Shown here: one piece after another, positions 5,280 to 16,982 of the stretch | How positions within the stretch are numbered: position 1 is the stretch's first letter | How the letters are laid out: each line of letters opens with the position of its first letter | NCBI GenBank assembly: GCA_944390085.1 | Contig: CALXOT010000138.1 | Location: 1 to 33,849, forward strand | Direction: 5' to 3' | Length of the DNA: 33,849 nucleotides | Origin: an uncultured Succinivibrionaceae bacterium | Lineage (GTDB): Bacteria > Pseudomonadota > Gammaproteobacteria > Enterobacterales > Succinivibrionaceae | Program-made: the position numbers and the translations under genes | The notes under the pieces: generated by a model | The model's database searches: none | The model's input: the letters and a program-made list of their open reading frames with translations, nothing else | What the model was told of the DNA's origin: nothing

Positions 5280-6197
5280 ATGAATACCTTTTCCCTGATC
5301 TTAGTGATAGCGACCATTGTGACCGCTCTTTGCTTTGTCTATGACTGGCGTTACCGCCGTCCGGCACGGCTACGCTATTGTGAACGTATGGCACAGGCCG
5401 ATCCCACTTTTAATAAGAAAAAGCGCAAGGCTCTGCTGGAACCTACCGGCCTGATTGGCCAGCTGGCCAGCCTCTTTCCAATCATCCTGATAGTGTTCCT
5501 GTTCAGATCATTTATCATCGAGCCTTTCCGCATCCCGTCAGGATCGATGATGCCTACCTTGCTGTCAGGAGACTTTATTGCGGTGACCAAATGGTCTTAT
5601 GGCATTAAGAACCCGCTGACCAATGCCACCTGGATCCGCACCGATGAGCCGCAGCGCGGGGACGTCATTGTGTTTAAGTATCCTGAGGACACTAAGGTCG
5701 ATTACATCAAGCGGGTGGTGGGACTGCCCGGCGATGAGATCACCTACCGCAACAAGCAGATTTATATCAGGAGAGCCTGCACTGCAGGGCAGGAATGTGA
5801 AAGCCCGCTGCCGGTGGAAATGATCCCTACCGGGGAGTATATGGCACAGGGGCTTGGTTATACCGAGCGTTATCTGGTGTTTAAGGAAAAGCTTGGCCAT
5901 ACTGAGCATGAAACCATGGTAAATCCCCGGGCTCCGGAGTTCCTGGCGCATTATTACCGTCAGGAAGGCGGTTTCCTTGGAACCTGGACCGTGCCTGAGG
6001 ACTGCTACTTTGTGATGGGCGATAATCGCGATAACAGCCGGGACAGCCGTTTCTGGGGCTTTGTACCGCGTGATTACATCATCGGCAAGACTGTCGGGAT
6101 CTGGTTGTCCCTGGAATTTGACAATGACGGTTCAGGCCTGCTGCCGTCCTGGCTGCCCTCAGGCATCCGCTTTGAGCGCATGGGAGGAATCGATTAA
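5280..6197 (+). CDS. lepB: Signal peptidase I (leader peptidase)
   Basis: Inner-membrane serine protease that removes signal peptides from exported proteins. It is 305 aa (E. coli 324). Two N-terminal membrane helices (about 4-21 and 64-80) are separated by a basic cytoplasmic loop. The Ser/Lys dyad is visible as Ser89 in IPSGSMMPTLLSGDF and Lys144 in DYIKRVVGLPGDE, one position from the E. coli residues. The family box MGDNRDNSRDSRFWGFV is near residue 250. It shares a TAATG junction with rnc, with GGGAGGA upstream, so the two are translationally coupled. Confidence 0.97.
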   Translation: MNTFSLILVIATIVTALCFVYDWRYRRPARLRYCERMAQADPTFNKKKRKALLEPTGLIGQLASLFPIILIVFLFRSFIIEPFRIPSGSMMPTLLSGDFIAVTKWSYGIKNPLTNATWIRTDEPQRGDVIVFKYPEDTKVDYIKRVVGLPGDEITYRNKQIYIRRACTAGQECESPLPVEMIPTGEYMAQGLGYTERYLVFKEKLGHTEHETMVNPRAPEFLAHYYRQEGGFLGTWTVPEDCYFVMGDNRDNSRDSRFWGFVPRDYIIGKTVGIWLSLEFDNDGSGLLPSWLPSGIRFERMGGID

Positions 6198-6904
6198 TGT
6201 TTAAAATTGATGCGGCCCGGGAGCAGAGCCTGGAGAGCCTGGAAAAAGCCATTGGCTATGGCTTTCAGAATATTGCCTATTTGGATCGGGCCTTAACTCA
6301 CCGCAGCTTTGGCGCCGAGCATAATGAGCGTCTGGAGTTTTTAGGCGATTCTATCCTCGGCATGATCATCGCAAAGCGCCTTTTTGATAAATTCCCCAAT
6401 TGCCCGGAGGGTGATCTGACGCGCATGCGCTCTTCCTTAGTGCGGGAGACAACACTGGCCGAAATAGCCCGCAGCTTTCAGTTGGGCGACAAGCTGCGCC
6501 TGGGGGCCGGGGAGCTCAAGTCCGGCGGGGCGCGGCGTGACTCCTTGCTGGCCGATGCAGTGGAATCCATCATCGGGGCCATGTTTCTGGATACCCGTCA
6601 GGATTATGCCCTGGTCTGTCAGGTGGTGCTTTCTTGGTTTGAGGAGAGGGTGAACACCATCAAGCCTGATATCAATCAAAAGGATCCCAAGTCACAGCTG
6701 CAGGAGATGCTGCAGGGACAGCATAGGCCGCTGCCGGTGTATACGGTGGATAAGATCAGCGGTGCTGATAACAATCAGACCTTTTTCGTCACCGCCCGGG
6801 TTTCCGGTATTTCCACTGAATTTAAGGGATCGGGTACTTCGCGACGCCGGGCTGAACAGGCTGCAGCTGAGCAGGCACTGCACTATCTGATGCAAAAGGA
6901 TTAA
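6197..6904 (+). CDS. rnc: Ribonuclease III
   Basis: Double-strand-specific endoribonuclease for rRNA and mRNA processing, 235 aa (E. coli 226). The catalytic signature ERLEFLGDS is at 44-52 and DAVESIIGAMFLD at 120-132, supplying the acidic residues Glu44, Glu47, Asp51, Asp120 and Glu123. A C-terminal double-stranded-RNA-binding domain follows, ending in GTSRRRAEQAAAEQAL. The start overlaps the lepB stop by one base. In E. coli rnc is followed at once by era; here an A+T-rich island of about 1.6 kb lies between them. Confidence 0.97.
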   Translation: MFKIDAAREQSLESLEKAIGYGFQNIAYLDRALTHRSFGAEHNERLEFLGDSILGMIIAKRLFDKFPNCPEGDLTRMRSSLVRETTLAEIARSFQLGDKLRLGAGELKSGGARRDSLLADAVESIIGAMFLDTRQDYALVCQVVLSWFEERVNTIKPDINQKDPKSQLQEMLQGQHRPLPVYTVDKISGADNNQTFFVTARVSGISTEFKGSGTSRRRAEQAAAEQALHYLMQKD

Positions 6905-6916
6905 TTTATATTGCAT

Positions 6917-6946
6917 TTGATGCTAATGTGGCGTGTAGGCTATATC
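6917..6946 (+). promoter_or_regulatory. Possible promoter for the Fic gene
   Basis: TTGATG (6917-6922), an 18-base spacer and TATATC (6941-6946), in the 85-base gap between rnc and the Fic start. Moderate match to a sigma-70 promoter; no terminator is visible after rnc, so readthrough is also possible. Confidence 0.35.
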
Positions 6947-6989
6947 TTTTAGAGCATCCTTTTTGCACGTCCTGTCGGGGGTAGTAAAA

Positions 6990-8108
6990 ATGCCGGTAAA
7001 ATATCAGAGTCATGGATTTCCGCCTAAGAAATTAGATTTTCAAAGGCTGTTACCCTATATCATAAATGCCCACAGGGCGGTAGCCAGATTCGACGGACTT
7101 TTGGCAGCAATCCCTAATGCTGATATTTTATTAGCCCCCCTGATGAAAAAAGAGGCGGTACTGTCGTCTAAAATTGAAGGCACACAGGCTTCTATTAGCG
7201 ATGTTCTGGAATATGAAGCGGGAAATGTCATAAAAAACGAGTCTGTCAGGCAGGATATTCAGGAGATTATTAATTATCGGCTGGCGATGCAAAGGGCGGA
7301 GGAATTATTAGCAGAACTGCCGCTTTCTCTCAGACTGGTCAAAGGTATTCATCAGGTTCTTATGTCTGGTGTCCGTGGTGGCAATAAGTGTCCGGGTGAA
7401 TTTAGGAAAGTACCTAATTGGATTGGATCTCCGGGCAGCAGTATCGACAATGCCACTTTTATCCCAATTTCTGCCGATAAACTTCCAGATGGCCTGAAAG
7501 ACTGGGAGCAGTTTATTAATGACAATGAGTTTAGTGAGTCAAAAAGTCCACTGGTGCAGATAGCTCTGGTTCACGCTGAATTTGAGGCTTTACATCCATT
7601 TTTAGATGGCAATGGCAGAGTTGGCCGTATTCTGATTCCTATTTTATTGTGGCAGAAAGGGCTTATTTCAAGACCGTCGTTTTATATAAGTGCTGCTTTT
7701 GAGCGCAAACGCTCTGAGTATTATGAAAGATTATTAAAAGTATCTGAAAAAAGTGAATGGGAAGAGTGGTGTATCTTCTTTCTTAATTGCATCAAGGAAG
7801 AAGGAGAGATCAATGTCGCTAAATCACAACAGATACTGGCATTGTACGATGATTTAAAGTTAAAAATAGCGGAGCTGACAAAATCGCATTTTTCTATATT
7901 TGTACTGGATGCCTTATTCAGTTTATGCATTTTCAACACTTCTCAGGTCGCAGAAGCAGCAAAAGTTCCGTACTACAGTGTCAGCAGAATTTTAAAGGTT
8001 CTTTGTGATAATGGAATTATTGCGGTGAACAGCAAGGGGCACGGAAGAATATCCACTCAGTATGTTTTTACTGAGTTACGTAATATTATCGAAGACATGG
8101 ATTCTTAG
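6990..8108 (+). CDS. Fic family protein (class II, putative adenylyltransferase with winged-helix tail)
   Basis: Fic proteins usually transfer AMP from ATP to target hydroxyls. The core motif HPFLDGNGRVGR (202-213) has the catalytic His202 and the nucleotide-binding Asn/Gly/Arg residues. An N-terminal Fic_N domain carries the inhibitory motif SSKIEG (59-64), of the (S/T)xxxE(G/N) type, on the helix before the core, which makes it class II, self-inhibited. Residues about 305-365 look like a winged helix (FNTSQVAEAAKVPYYSVSRILKVL). The length of 372 aa fits class II proteins such as that of Shewanella. ATG 6990 is chosen because GGGGG lies 8 bases upstream; TTG 6963 would add nine residues. The gene is visibly A+T-richer than its neighbours, which suggests import. 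The target is unknown. Confidence 0.92.
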   Translation: MPVKYQSHGFPPKKLDFQRLLPYIINAHRAVARFDGLLAAIPNADILLAPLMKKEAVLSSKIEGTQASISDVLEYEAGNVIKNESVRQDIQEIINYRLAMQRAEELLAELPLSLRLVKGIHQVLMSGVRGGNKCPGEFRKVPNWIGSPGSSIDNATFIPISADKLPDGLKDWEQFINDNEFSESKSPLVQIALVHAEFEALHPFLDGNGRVGRILIPILLWQKGLISRPSFYISAAFERKRSEYYERLLKVSEKSEWEEWCIFFLNCIKEEGEINVAKSQQILALYDDLKLKIAELTKSHFSIFVLDALFSLCIFNTSQVAEAAKVPYYSVSRILKVLCDNGIIAVNSKGHGRISTQYVFTELRNIIEDMDS

Positions 8109-11602: not shown

Positions 11603-13840
11603 ATGGTTGCCCTCAGAGATACGCATAAAGCATCCTTTGACTTTGAGCAATGGAGCAATGCCCTGGCCTTGCCTGCAGAGGACAAGGACAGACTGCACCG
11701 TGCGCATCTCTTCGTGATGGAGAAGATTGGCGATCGCAATAAGGAACTGGCACAGCGCCACTCCAATCTGTCAGCCGAGATAGTCGGGATCCTGATGACG
11801 CTGAATATGGACGTGGAGTCCTTGGAGGCAGCTTTCCTATACCCGGCCTTTGAGGATCATTTGATCACCAGGGACGAGGTGGAGGAAAAGTTCGGGGCCG
11901 GGGAGGCCAAGCTGCTGCTGGCGGTCAAGGACATGGAGGCCATCCGCTATCTGCAGAATTTAAGTCAGGGTCGTGATTTTTCCGGTGCCAAGGTCGACCG
12001 GGTGCGGCGCATGCTGCTTGCCATGGTGGACGATGTCCGGGCAGTGGTGATCAAGCTTGCAGAAAGGATAGCGGTGATCCGGGCTGCCAAGAAGGCCGAT
12101 GAAAAGGTAAGGCTGCTGATTGCCAAGGAAGTGTCCAATATCTATGCCCCGCTGGCCAACCGCCTGGGCATCGGTCAGCTCAAATGGGAACTTGAGGATC
12201 TGGCCTTCCGCTTCCTGCATGAAAAAACCTATAAACAGATTGCCCATGATCTGGGGGAGCGGCGTATTGACCGCGAAAAGTACATCGCCGCTTTTGTCGC
12301 TGAGCTCAAGGCTCTGCTCGATGCTGAAGGCATCCATGGCGAAGTCTACGGCAGGCCCAAGCATATCTACAGCATCTGGCGCAAGATGCAGAAAAAACAC
12401 CTGGAGTTTAATGAGCTCTACGATATCCGCGCCGTGAGGGTAGTGGTGGATACCATGCCAGAGTGCTATGCCGCCCTCGGCGTCATTCATACCAAATGGC
12501 AGCATCTGGCCAAGGAATTTGACGACTATATTGCCAACCCCAAGCCCAATGGTTACCAGTCCATTCATACGGTGGTGTTCGGTGATGGTGGCAAGGCCAT
12601 TGAGGTGCAGATCAGGACCAAGGCCATGCATCAGATGGCTGAGCTTGGCGTGGCGGCGCACTGGAAGTATAAGGAAGGTTCAGGCCAGGTATCTGGTGCC
12701 GAACAGCGCATCAATTTCTTGCGTAAGCTCTTGGCTTGGCGCGATGACATGGTCGAATCCGGTGCCCTGCTTGAAGAGTTCCGCAAGCAGGTGTTTGAAG
12801 ACCGGGTTTATGTCTTCACCCCGCAAGGAGAGGTTATAGATCTGCCCACCGGATCAACCCCGCTGGATTTTGCTTATCACATCCATACCATGGTGGGGCA
12901 TCGCTGCATCGGTGCCAAGGTAAACGGGCGCATTGTGCCTTATACCTATAAGCTTAAGACCGGTGAGCAGGTTGAGATCATCACGCAAAAAGAGCCCAAT
13001 CCCTCGCGTGACTGGATGAATGCGGATGCTGGCTTCTTAAAAACTAATAAGGCGCGCTCTAAGGTACAGGCCTGGTTCCGTAAGGTCGATTATGAGCGTA
13101 ACTTTGCCGATGGCTGCGAGATCGTGGAACGGGAGGTGGCAAGGCACAGCCTTAATCTGAATAAGGATCAGGTAGCCTCGCTGTTAAAAGACAAGCTGGA
13201 GCGCTTTAACGTCAAAACGGTGGATGATGTTTATGCCGGGGTGGGCGCGGGCGATATCAAGATAAATCAGATTATTGCCTATCTTGAGGAACGTACCGGC
13301 AAGCGCACGGAAAATGAACGTGAGCCTGATCTGGCCTCCCTGGTGAGCTCCGGCAAAAACAACCGCCAGCTGATACATCAGCGCAGCAACAAAAGCGGCA
13401 TTATCGTGGATGGGGTGGGCAATATGATGACCCACATCGCCAGATGCTGCCAGCCGATCCCGGGAGATCGGATAGTAGGCTTTATCACGCAGGGGCGTGG
13501 GATCTCCATTCACCGCCAGGACTGTCCGCAGGTGCGCAATTTGATAAAGACCAGTCCGGAGCGCATGGTAAAAGCCCAATGGGGGAGTGCTACTTCCGAT
13601 GCTGGCTATACTGCCACCTTGCGGGTGATCGCCCCTGACTATTCCGGTTTACTGCGTGATGTGACTACAGTGATCGCCAATGAAAAGCTCAATGTGCTGG
13701 GAGTACGCTCACGTATTGACCGCATGAAGGATCTTTCAATTATTGATGTGGATCTGATGCTGGTAGGAGTGACTTCGTTAGGTCGACTGATAGAAAAACT
13801 TAAGGCAGTGCCTAAGGTCAGGAGCGTAAAACGCTTGTAG
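11603..13840 (+). CDS. relA: GTP pyrophosphokinase RelA, (p)ppGpp synthetase I
   Basis: Ribosome-bound enzyme that makes (p)ppGpp when uncharged tRNA enters the A site. It is 745 aa (E. coli 744), alignable throughout. The N-terminal hydrolase domain is degenerate: the HD motif region reads LYPAFEDH. The synthetase domain has YGRPKHIYSIWRKMQKK and EFDD (305-308) in EFDDYIANPKPNGYQS; an acidic ExDD motif is the mark of synthase-only RelA. TGS domain (VYVFTPQGEVIDLPTGSTPL), zinc-finger region ARCCQPIPGD and C-terminal ACT domain are all present. GGAG lies 6 bases before ATG 11603, overlapping the rlmD end. No mazEF or mazG follows. Confidence 0.97.
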   Translation: MVALRDTHKASFDFEQWSNALALPAEDKDRLHRAHLFVMEKIGDRNKELAQRHSNLSAEIVGILMTLNMDVESLEAAFLYPAFEDHLITRDEVEEKFGAGEAKLLLAVKDMEAIRYLQNLSQGRDFSGAKVDRVRRMLLAMVDDVRAVVIKLAERIAVIRAAKKADEKVRLLIAKEVSNIYAPLANRLGIGQLKWELEDLAFRFLHEKTYKQIAHDLGERRIDREKYIAAFVAELKALLDAEGIHGEVYGRPKHIYSIWRKMQKKHLEFNELYDIRAVRVVVDTMPECYAALGVIHTKWQHLAKEFDDYIANPKPNGYQSIHTVVFGDGGKAIEVQIRTKAMHQMAELGVAAHWKYKEGSGQVSGAEQRINFLRKLLAWRDDMVESGALLEEFRKQVFEDRVYVFTPQGEVIDLPTGSTPLDFAYHIHTMVGHRCIGAKVNGRIVPYTYKLKTGEQVEIITQKEPNPSRDWMNADAGFLKTNKARSKVQAWFRKVDYERNFADGCEIVEREVARHSLNLNKDQVASLLKDKLERFNVKTVDDVYAGVGAGDIKINQIIAYLEERTGKRTENEREPDLASLVSSGKNNRQLIHQRSNKSGIIVDGVGNMMTHIARCCQPIPGDRIVGFITQGRGISIHRQDCPQVRNLIKTSPERMVKAQWGSATSDAGYTATLRVIAPDYSGLLRDVTTVIANEKLNVLGVRSRIDRMKDLSIIDVDLMLVGVTSLGRLIEKLKAVPKVRSVKRL

Positions 13841-13926
13841 CAAGAGTTATTTGGGAATTGAGGATTTTAGCTTCAGCATGTGGGGGCAGACTGTTTTCTG
13901 GTGCCGTAATCCTGGCTGCTTCAGTT

Positions 13927-13977
13927 CACTGGTAACAGTGTGATCAGATACGTGAGCATAAATAAAAATGTTATAGT
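13927..13977 (+). promoter_or_regulatory. Possible operator and promoter of the two-gene unit
   Basis: CACTG-GTAA-CAGTG forms a short perfect palindrome at 13927-13940. A TATAGT box lies at 13972-13977 with only a poor -35 (TACGTG, 13949-13954). The gap from relA is 221 bases, so independent transcription is plausible. Confidence 0.35.
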
Positions 13978-14061
13978 AAGCTGCAGTTGTATTTAGATGT
14001 CAGTCATGGCCCATGAAATTACAGATCTCAAATTGCAGATAATGTTAACTGGAAATATCAA

Positions 14062-14688
14062 ATGCCATCATTAAGTGATACAGAAATAGCAGAGGCAAGA
14101 GCAAAAGGTCTTTTGGTAATCGATCCTTTTATTGCTGATAATCTGCAGCCTGGAAGTATTGATCTGACTTTGTATAAATTTATTGAGGTATTAGATGACA
14201 GTCAACCTGTTATTCTTCCTGTAGGCAAGGAAGATATTGAGCGCAGAACCAAGGTTGTTGATATTAGTACGGGGTATGTACTAAAAGCCGGCAGTTTTGT
14301 TACAGGTTACAGTAATGAGCAAATCCGTTTGCCCAGCAATATAAATGGCATTATAACCAATCGCAACAGCCTGGCTAGAATTGGTTTAAATGCCGGGATC
14401 AGTTCTTATATTAATCCTGGTTTTCACGGCAGAAAGGTGATCGTAATTAAAAATGAAAGTAGAGCTGATATTACGATTAAGGCCGGGCTCAGGATCTGTC
14501 AGTTAGTGCTTTTTCATTTAGGATCAGAAACGCTGCGCAGTTATGATAACCGGCATAATGAAGCTGAAATTCTAAGCAAACTTAAGGAAAAGGGGAATGG
14601 TTCTGCACGCAGAACACCGGGGATTGACGACAGTCTGTCTGATTTTTTAAACAAACGGATAGCCCAGATGGCAGGGAATTTGTCATGA
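14062..14688 (+). CDS. dCTP deaminase/dUTPase-fold protein lacking the catalytic glutamate
   Basis: A 208-aa protein of the trimeric dCTP deaminase/dUTPase fold. Family landmarks are QPGSIDLTL (29-37), NRNSLARIGL (100-109, matching the E. coli Dcd RSSLARLGL phosphate-binding loop) and INPGFHG (117-123). Two key positions differ: the Asp of the IDPG motif is Asn118, and the residue equivalent to Glu138, the general base of E. coli Dcd, is Val128 (GRKVIVIKN instead of GCIVLEFYN). Ordinary deamination or dUTP hydrolysis therefore looks unlikely, while nucleotide binding may be kept. A 40-residue C-terminal tail follows the fold. The ribosome site is weak (GGAAA). The gene is A+T-richer than its neighbours, and its stop overlaps the next start (ATGA). 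Confidence 0.85.
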   Translation: MPSLSDTEIAEARAKGLLVIDPFIADNLQPGSIDLTLYKFIEVLDDSQPVILPVGKEDIERRTKVVDISTGYVLKAGSFVTGYSNEQIRLPSNINGIITNRNSLARIGLNAGISSYINPGFHGRKVIVIKNESRADITIKAGLRICQLVLFHLGSETLRSYDNRHNEAEILSKLKEKGNGSARRTPGIDDSLSDFLNKRIAQMAGNLS

Positions 14689-15143
14689 ACAAAAACCTTG
14701 CAAAGCAGAACATTAAACAATTGCTGTTGCAGAAAACTGAGCTGCCTGAGCAGATATTGCTGGATTTGGCAAAACAGAAGCTTTCCAATATTTATTCAGC
14801 TACAGGAAGAGATAGCAGCCGGATTGGGAAGGAAGAGTTAAATAAATTTATAGAACAAAATTACACTAGTTTAGCTAAAGACAGCGATAAGATTTTAGAC
14901 GAACTGTGTACTGAAGCTATTCCAGGGCATTGGATAAAAGGTTTTCTGTTAAATTTTGGTGTGCTGTCTGTTTTTCTGGTCGTGCCTATTTATCCCTTGG
15001 TCAAATATGCTGTCTGTATCTGGAGGAATGTGCCGTTTGATACAAGTGAATTTGCTTCCTGCGTGATAGCAATTTTACTATTGTCTATCTTATTTTTAGC
15101 TTCAGCTTGTGCTGTCATTAAAGATAATCTCAGAAAAGTATGA
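14685..15143 (+). CDS. Small protein with two C-terminal membrane helices, partner of the preceding gene
   Basis: A 152-aa protein of no family I recognise. Residues 1-82 are hydrophilic and probably helical (AKQNIKQLLLQKTELPEQIL, EELNKFIEQNY). Two hydrophobic segments follow at about 86-108 (FLLNFGVLSVFLVVPIYPL) and 124-145 (ASCVIAILLLSILFLASAC), with a short basic tail DNLRKV. It starts within the stop of the upstream gene and has AGGGAA 6 bases before its ATG, so the two proteins are probably made together in fixed ratio. A membrane effector controlled by the soluble nucleotide-binding-fold protein is inferred, not shown. Confidence 0.8.
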   Translation: MNKNLAKQNIKQLLLQKTELPEQILLDLAKQKLSNIYSATGRDSSRIGKEELNKFIEQNYTSLAKDSDKILDELCTEAIPGHWIKGFLLNFGVLSVFLVVPIYPLVKYAVCIWRNVPFDTSEFASCVIAILLLSILFLASACAVIKDNLRKV

Positions 15144-15165
15144 TGGGTATCTTGCCTTGGACTTG

Positions 15166-15227
15166 AAAAAATCTGGGCGCTTGACCCCTGACCTGAAGGT
15201 CAGAGGATTGCGCGCCCAGATTTTTTT
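15166..15227 (+). terminator. Strong two-tier intrinsic terminator, probably bidirectional
   Basis: A6TCTGGGCGC (15166-15180) pairs perfectly with GCGCCCAGAT7 (15212-15227), giving a long stem with an A-run before and a T-run after. Its loop holds a second perfect stem, CTGACC/GGTCAG (15188-15193 and 15198-15203, TGAA loop). It ends the two-gene unit and insulates pyrG. Confidence 0.9.
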
Positions 15228-15278
15228 CAATGAATCTTGAGGCTGCCGGAATAAAAGTACAGAGTGAAAGCAGCAGTT

Positions 15279-16982
<1,704 letters not shown>

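Follow-up and report, generated by a model that had tools for sequence, protein, structure and literature searches.

The RexAB systems, described in lambda and in P. putida P1, Sbash, CarolAnn and Butters (gp30/gp31), are prophage-borne and consist of adjacent genes for a soluble and a membrane protein. According to the accessible parts of two reports, RexA senses, and activation of RexB leads to membrane damage and growth arrest (PMC12894663, PMC7542560). The effectors with two transmembrane segments (2TM) of CBASS, SLATT and type III CRISPR systems (Cam1, Cap1) are small membrane proteins joined to a nucleotide-binding sensor, as far as the available excerpts describe them, and such an arrangement is also proposed here. 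The literature matches listed, in the text accessible and with most subscription journals outside the coverage, described no dCTP-deaminase-fold protein coupled to a membrane protein.

When a phage infects, dNTP pools are reshaped, and genes for dUTPases and dCTP deaminases are common in phages; examples were found in this analysis. Defence dCTP deaminases of the AvcID type deplete dCTP and have a zinc-deaminase fold. We know of no described protein that directly senses a change of the dNTP pool and drives a membrane effector.

The locus studied here lies in a window of 33,849 nt (the whole stretch of DNA that was analysed) from an uncultured Succinivibrionaceae bacterium. Two genes, A and B, are inserted between relA and pyrG. 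The features are as follows:

11603..13840, + strand: relA, left flank of the insertion
13841..14061, + strand: leader of 221 nt between relA and gene A, presumed location of the promoter
14062..14688, + strand: gene A, 208 aa, ATG start; matches Pfam DCD (1.7e-28) and TIGR02274; proposed sensor
14413..14415, + strand: codon AAT for Asn118, occupying the motif-3 Asp position (E. coli D128)
14443..14445, + strand: codon GTA for Val128, occupying the catalytic Glu position (E. coli E138)
14685..15143, + strand: gene B, 152 aa, ATG start; C-terminal hydrophobic segments at about 87–105 and 127–145; proposed membrane effector
15163..15230, + strand: Rho-independent terminator-type hairpin with a U run, −42 kcal/mol, z −6.0, closing the A-B unit
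15339..16982, + strand: pyrG, right flank of the insertion

An earlier note, made from the letters alone, had described a two-gene unit with an ATGA junction, A+T-richer than its neighbours and ending in its own strong terminator. All three points were confirmed. Both ORFs lie at the coordinates above, and their overlap is the shared ATGA. The motif AGGGA, within gene A, precedes the start of gene B, so that A and B are probably translationally coupled. The GC3 values of genes A and B were 0.341 and 0.368, against 0.53–0.69 in 23 of the 24 other listed window genes; the 24th is fic (0.39). The longest ORF in 500 base shuffles of 13841–15330 was 163 aa, and ORFs of at least 208 and 152 aa arose in 0/500 and 2/500 shuffles. 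The strong hairpin behind gene B was absent from the output of a simple terminator scan, whose loop limit is 8. A simple promoter scan, uninformative in this respect, gave no convincing sigma-70 site in the leader, and no Rfam match was found in 13800–15400.

The insertion site was compared with those of four congeners (G001–G004), none of which had a gene A match. The relA-pyrG gap of G001 is 188 bp and empty of insert, and in G003 and G004 relA did not adjoin pyrG in the stretches fetched. Given the variable site and the lack of a gene A match in the congeners, the A-B unit is best explained as a recent acquisition at a variable position. The same gap of G002 (L193, 4092–8194) holds other cargo, with ORFs of 788 and 551 aa, and the relA-pyrG gap may be a cargo hotspot. 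A fic/doc-family gene (6963–8108; Pfam Fic 1.6e-18, Fic_N 8e-24) lies in the window between rnc and era. With its low GC3 and the A+T-rich spacer that follows, it is a second foreign-looking passenger amid housekeeping genes.

The gene A product matched Pfam DCD with 100.1 bits (cut-off 27) and the dUTPase family at 1.1e-9. Its score against TIGR02274, the curated equivalog for dCTP deaminase, was above the cut-off (97.5 against 92.8 bits). Chain 2qxx_A, which we take to be the M. tuberculosis bifunctional DCD-DUT, matched at 4.7e-17, so that fold and overall sequence are alike. Gene A differs from RexA in having a DCD fold: its best and above-cut-off matches were DCD/dUTPase, with no Rex family match in the libraries searched. 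Against the 5027 PADLOC models, 0/15 gene A rows matched at E 0.1. The C-terminal tail of gene A is longer than that of the E. coli protein.

The catalytic residues are missing from gene A. Residues 110–138 are given here in E. coli DCD numbering, in which D128 and E138 correspond to N118 and V128 of the window protein. The comparison covered 69 aligned proteins, namely 18 family rows (window included) and 51 ordinary dCTP deaminase rows; the 118-aa gene A of L044 was omitted. Residue 128 was Asn in 18/18 family rows and Asp in 51/51 ordinary rows. Residue 138 was Glu in 51/51 ordinary rows and in none of the 18 family rows (Leu in 10, Val in 4, Ile in 3, Ala in 1). The two groups were sorted by residue 128 itself, and only residue 138 is an independent test. 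The genome and viral scan patterns contain Y-I/M-N-P-G, so that N128 and Y126 were partly selected for; none of the patterns includes residue 138. The Asn pattern played no part in finding four members (the window, G031 = L006, L027 and L213); each of them has Asn and is without Glu138. The L213 motif is SFINPGY, with Phe at 126; it does not fit the Asn scan pattern and was found through another. E138 is presumably the catalytic Glu and general base of E. coli dCTP deaminase, and the E. coli structures in the Protein Data Bank include E138A and E138D, in line with a catalytic position. In a maximum-likelihood tree, the 18 family rows lay on one side of a branch with support 98/96, for which the program warned that some long branches meet.

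From these residues, gene A looks like a pseudo-enzyme. Of the "deaminase/dUTPase-fold protein" in the earlier note, the fold is upheld by Pfam DCD and TIGR02274, and the word deaminase is not. Gene A differs from E. coli Dcd and the DCD-DUT protein in its replaced Asp128, Glu138 and S111, in its mostly replaced R115 and in its membrane-gene neighbour. It shares with the AvcID type the name and the link between pyrimidine dNTPs and defence, but catalysis is not expected of it.

Two enzymatic assignments were rejected. An active dCTP deaminase is contradicted by the changes D128 to Asn and E138 to Val, despite the TIGR02274 score. For a trimeric dUTPase or DCD-DUT, the motif-3 catalytic Asp is Asn118 here, and it is Asn also in L213. 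According to the accessible part of PMC4827122, human dUTPase with this Asp changed to Asn loses its activity, and its substrate binding is unaffected.

At the nucleotide pocket, R110 and Y126 were kept in 18/18 family rows. In a conservation count of 15 rows, which left out L040, L043 and L046, R110, Y126 and N128 were invariant, the last two being partly pattern-selected and L213 having Phe126. This suggests a kept pocket and ligand. S111 was replaced by Tyr, Asn or His in 18/18 family rows and R115 was kept in 2/18, whereas both were present in 51/51 ordinary rows. By these losses, nucleotide binding may be gone, above all in Bacillota. The window protein has Asn102 at the S111 position and retains Arg106 at the R115 position. 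L213 retains R110, S111, S112 and R115, an intact phosphate-side motif without the catalytic residues. The ordered pocket with its three invariant (partly pattern-selected) residues would also suit an enzyme that acts on another nucleotide by altered chemistry, but the general base and the catalytic Asp are both gone, and we consider such activity extremely improbable.

Gene B encodes a small predicted membrane protein of 114–167 aa in the uncut copies (mechanical starts). The two C-terminal membrane helices claimed for the window protein were recovered as the hydrophobic segments listed above, with a script that always picks the best two windows. With the Kyte-Doolittle cut-off set at 1.5, at least two segments were counted in 15 of 23 gene B ORFs, one in six and none in two; one of these two is L046, where the ORF is cut short. 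The alignment of 16 gene B rows showed two C-terminal hydrophobic stretches, the first weak in several rows, again by the script that always picks two. In the 12 Bacillales-type rows, 3–7 Lys/Arg lie in the 12 residues before TM1 and the loop has 3–7 residues, which suggests an N-in/C-in hairpin. The loop of the window protein has 21 residues, and its charges do not decide the topology. RexB-type proteins have four transmembrane segments, against two hydrophobic segments in gene B.

The window gene B had no Pfam or NCBIfam match above cut-off and nothing convincing in PADLOC or PHROGs. For the 16 family members at E up to 0.1, matches were scattered over 23 Pfam, 12 PADLOC and 20 PHROGs models, none of which claims gene B. 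A known housekeeping membrane family, which the earlier note had named as speaking against the pair, was not found for it: no curated family reached its cut-off. The best of the PADLOC matches was 0.00029 (DruE, 2/16), the best for the window protein was 0.022, and these were taken as chance. Among the 2TM effectors of CBASS and SLATT there was no convincing family match (RT-SLATT at 0.032 in 1/16, PADLOC). The Protein Data Bank profiles gave one match at 0.083. The YtxC-like family (Pfam PF08812), the most frequent of these matches, was rejected: it matched 5/16 members at E up to 0.1, with a best score of 26.8 bits below the cut-off of 33.1. The YtxC matches are confined to the N-terminal 40–52 residues of some gene B proteins, with none in the window protein; a distant link of this N-terminal part is possible.

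No conserved stretch suited to a scan was found in the full gene B alignment. Gene B diverges faster than gene A, with a mean pairwise difference over 15 pairs of 0.77 against 0.59. For 15 pairs the distance matrices of A and B correlated with r = 0.87, and for the 11 Bacillota pairs with 0.82; 0/5000 permutations were as high. By this correlation, A and B appear to be inherited as a unit. Alignment A4 leaves out L040, L043, L044, L046 and duplicate loci.

The pairing of the two genes was conserved. When an alignment of three gene A proteins was used for family scans, 16 genome and 8 viral loci were obtained; among them, the distinct gene A ORFs number 18. A gene B relative lay directly downstream of gene A in 23/24 loci (17/18 distinct gene A ORFs), mostly with overlaps of 4 or 8 nt. 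Rare adjacency elsewhere had been named in the earlier note as what would speak against the pair, and the opposite was found. Since 15 of these sequences and that of the window went into the gene B profile, its score is not an independent test; the adjacency is. In the 12 genomes behind these loci, this profile matched beside gene A in 11, gave none in that of L044, and had one further weak match. The sole unpaired locus is L044, where gene A is truncated.

Ordinary dCTP deaminases served as the control. A short membrane ORF was found behind 0/34 parsed loci; 53 loci were tried, 19 had no parsable motif, and the 34 counted comprise 29 distinct loci and 5 second copies. The viral loci with the ordinary motif (L212, L214, L215, L220, L221/L222, L223 and L224) also had no membrane ORF directly behind. 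Viral loci L216–L219 were dropped, as the script gave no gene A ORF. L253 and L254 were rejected as family members, being dCTP-deaminase-type ORFs with Asp and Glu in place. In G117 (L104, 1498–1929, minus strand), the same membrane hairpin was seen on a different N-terminal part with gene A absent; a different 112-aa ORF lies upstream and a DUF1653 gene downstream. This single example reads as a module swap and is possibly a recombination remnant. The chimeric G117 protein had no relative in a viral scan.

In L046, a prophage copy, an IS3-like element (by eye; 5644–7657) interrupts gene B; gene A stays open, and DUF1653 lies beyond. A broken B beside an open A would suit a toxin-antitoxin pair that stabilises mobile elements, with B as membrane toxin, A as its neutralising partner and any phage effect secondary, and two small overlapping genes on a plasmid and on prophages are in keeping with this. 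Antitoxins of enzyme fold are uncommon, and the invariant R110, Y126 and N128 (15 rows, the last two partly pattern-selected) suggest a kept pocket and ligand, which both count against it. We regard the toxin-antitoxin reading as rather unlikely.

Neighbouring genes were named by eye from the ORFs unless a family match is given. The copies from the viral collection lie in prophages, often near endolysin/holin genes. In L213 a Cro-like gene and a cI-like S24 repressor precede the pair, which is the order of cI-rexA-rexB (by eye). This is the one copy seen directly behind a cI-like repressor, the rexAB position; its downstream ORF runs off the contig after the first TM, and the remaining prophage copies have other positions. 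L029 is found amid phage replication genes, and conjugation genes adjoin L030. Plasmid pBpOF4-01 bears one copy, and there gene A is annotated as "dcd: dCTP deaminase"; what may be an immune module can thus go by a housekeeping name. Behind the Fictibacillus pair (L039) come DUF1653, a specificity-subunit-like ORF and then Avs2 (PADLOC 5.3e-234), the last about 1.2 kb from the pair. In L031 a pentapeptide protein follows, and then, two genes behind the pair, a PDC-S09-type nucleotidyltransferase (1.8e-8). In L033 the distance from the pair to an HNH type-IV-like protein (5.9e-8) is about 1.5 kb. Two neighbours in L041 and one in L104 had no PADLOC match. This neighbour scan covered ten proteins from five loci and had no random-locus control; the other loci were read by eye. 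DUF1653 follows gene B at −49 to +19 nt in L039, L041/L051, L042, L045, L047, L049 and L050, all Bacillota. It was rejected as a defining third gene, as it was not found behind gene B in the other loci listed, and gene B was present in 6 of the 80 viral loci fetched with DUF1653. Among the literature matches listed, one paper mentions DUF1653.

The endolysin/holin genes near many prophage pairs (by eye) also bear on a role in phage lysis, in which gene B would be holin- or antiholin-like and gene A would time lysis. Holin models matched gene B weakly (PHROGs 1/16 at E 0.015, Pfam 1/16 at 0.048). Against this, reading by eye the flanks fetched for the window pair, pBpOF4-01, L030, L033, L039 and L042 revealed no lysis genes, and the pair of L213 lies in the immunity rather than the late region. 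An accessory role in lysis is therefore judged highly unlikely.

We give about an even chance to the reading that A-B is a horizontally moved two-gene abortive-infection (or prophage-exclusion) unit, with a dead deaminase as sensor and a membrane hairpin as effector. Most likely it works like RexAB, without apparent relation to it; the ligand, the contact between A and B, the membrane damage and the phage protection are what we infer. A conserved fold without its catalytic residues agrees with a sensor that is not an enzyme. The prophage and plasmid copies, Avs2 near one copy and the one cI-adjacent copy fit a role in conflict. The sensor and membrane effector proposed in the earlier note are thus partly supported. 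Since dCTP deaminases are regulated by dTTP, according to the accessible part of PMC4827122, a protein of this fold could plausibly read pyrimidine dNTPs.

In the proposed mechanism, the gene A product would be a DCD-fold oligomer that no longer deaminates or hydrolyses. It may still bind a deoxypyrimidine nucleotide, or it may encounter a related protein made by a phage. An infection-induced change would alter its shape, and the signal would pass by way of the extra C-terminal tail of gene A and the N-terminal region of gene B. This would allow the gene B hairpins, each with two TM segments, to assemble and breach the inner membrane, by analogy possibly as a pore, and the cell would stop before phage is made. 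A more specific version is put forward tentatively and is less probable than the abortive-infection unit as such. Here the dead deaminase would be an immune sensor that reads the deoxypyrimidine pool (phage-made dUTP, shifts of dTTP or dCTP) or forms mixed oligomers with a phage dUTPase or deaminase, and it would gate the two-TM effector directly, without a second messenger. By eye, no second-messenger synthase was recognised in the ORF lists. The A-B unit is small and present in named Bacillota strains, so that clear tests are possible. PBS1 is a dU-containing phage with B. subtilis as its host.

The A-B unit is rare and patchy. Carriers were found in Succinivibrionaceae, Halanaerobiales and other Bacillota, prophages and one plasmid being among the copies. 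When genomes were searched with the gene A profile, members of the family reached at least 223 bits and all else at most 141, the members being in the profile. In the viral loci, the pair-type L213 (133 bits) scored below the ordinary L212 (148 bits), so members like L213 are missed by score and the following counts are lower bounds. High-scoring gene A was found in at least 3/56 genomes of the Succinivibrionaceae family (the window and the genomes of L029 and L030). In the phylum it was found in at least 1/398 genomes, in two Bacillota orders in at least 1/299 and 1/296, and in the Halanaerobiales class in at least 1/59 (G061), the match in each case being the centre genome itself. A viral scan with the L213 protein matched its own contig alone, and its best match in the 398 phylum genomes was the window protein, with 38% identity.

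This distribution bears on a metabolic reading, in which A-B would be a membrane-tethered dead subunit that modulates a host or phage dCTP deaminase or dUTPase, or the local dNTP pool. The fold is that of dNTP-pool enzymes. The genome of the window has a dUTPase (C79), G061 of Halanaerobiales has the dead form together with an ordinary dCTP deaminase (135.7 bits), and a DCD-like protein of other Bacillales has a C-terminal TM. The patchy distribution, the partly mobile setting and the fast-evolving partner speak against such a regulator, as does the absence of the membrane gene at ordinary dCTP deaminase loci. It is considered distinctly unlikely, and the abortive-infection unit remains the preferred reading.

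An ordinary dCTP deaminase was detected in 6/56 genomes of the family of the window (family profile, E 1e-6), and many of them may thus lack dcd. In three Bacillales loci (L195, L196 and L197 of G279, G110 and G175), a DCD-like ORF lies beside another that has a single C-terminal TM, and an ORF resembling a dimeric dUTPase (by eye) is nearby. The neighbourhood of at least L195 resembles, by eye, the slot where relatives keep a trimeric dUTPase gene.
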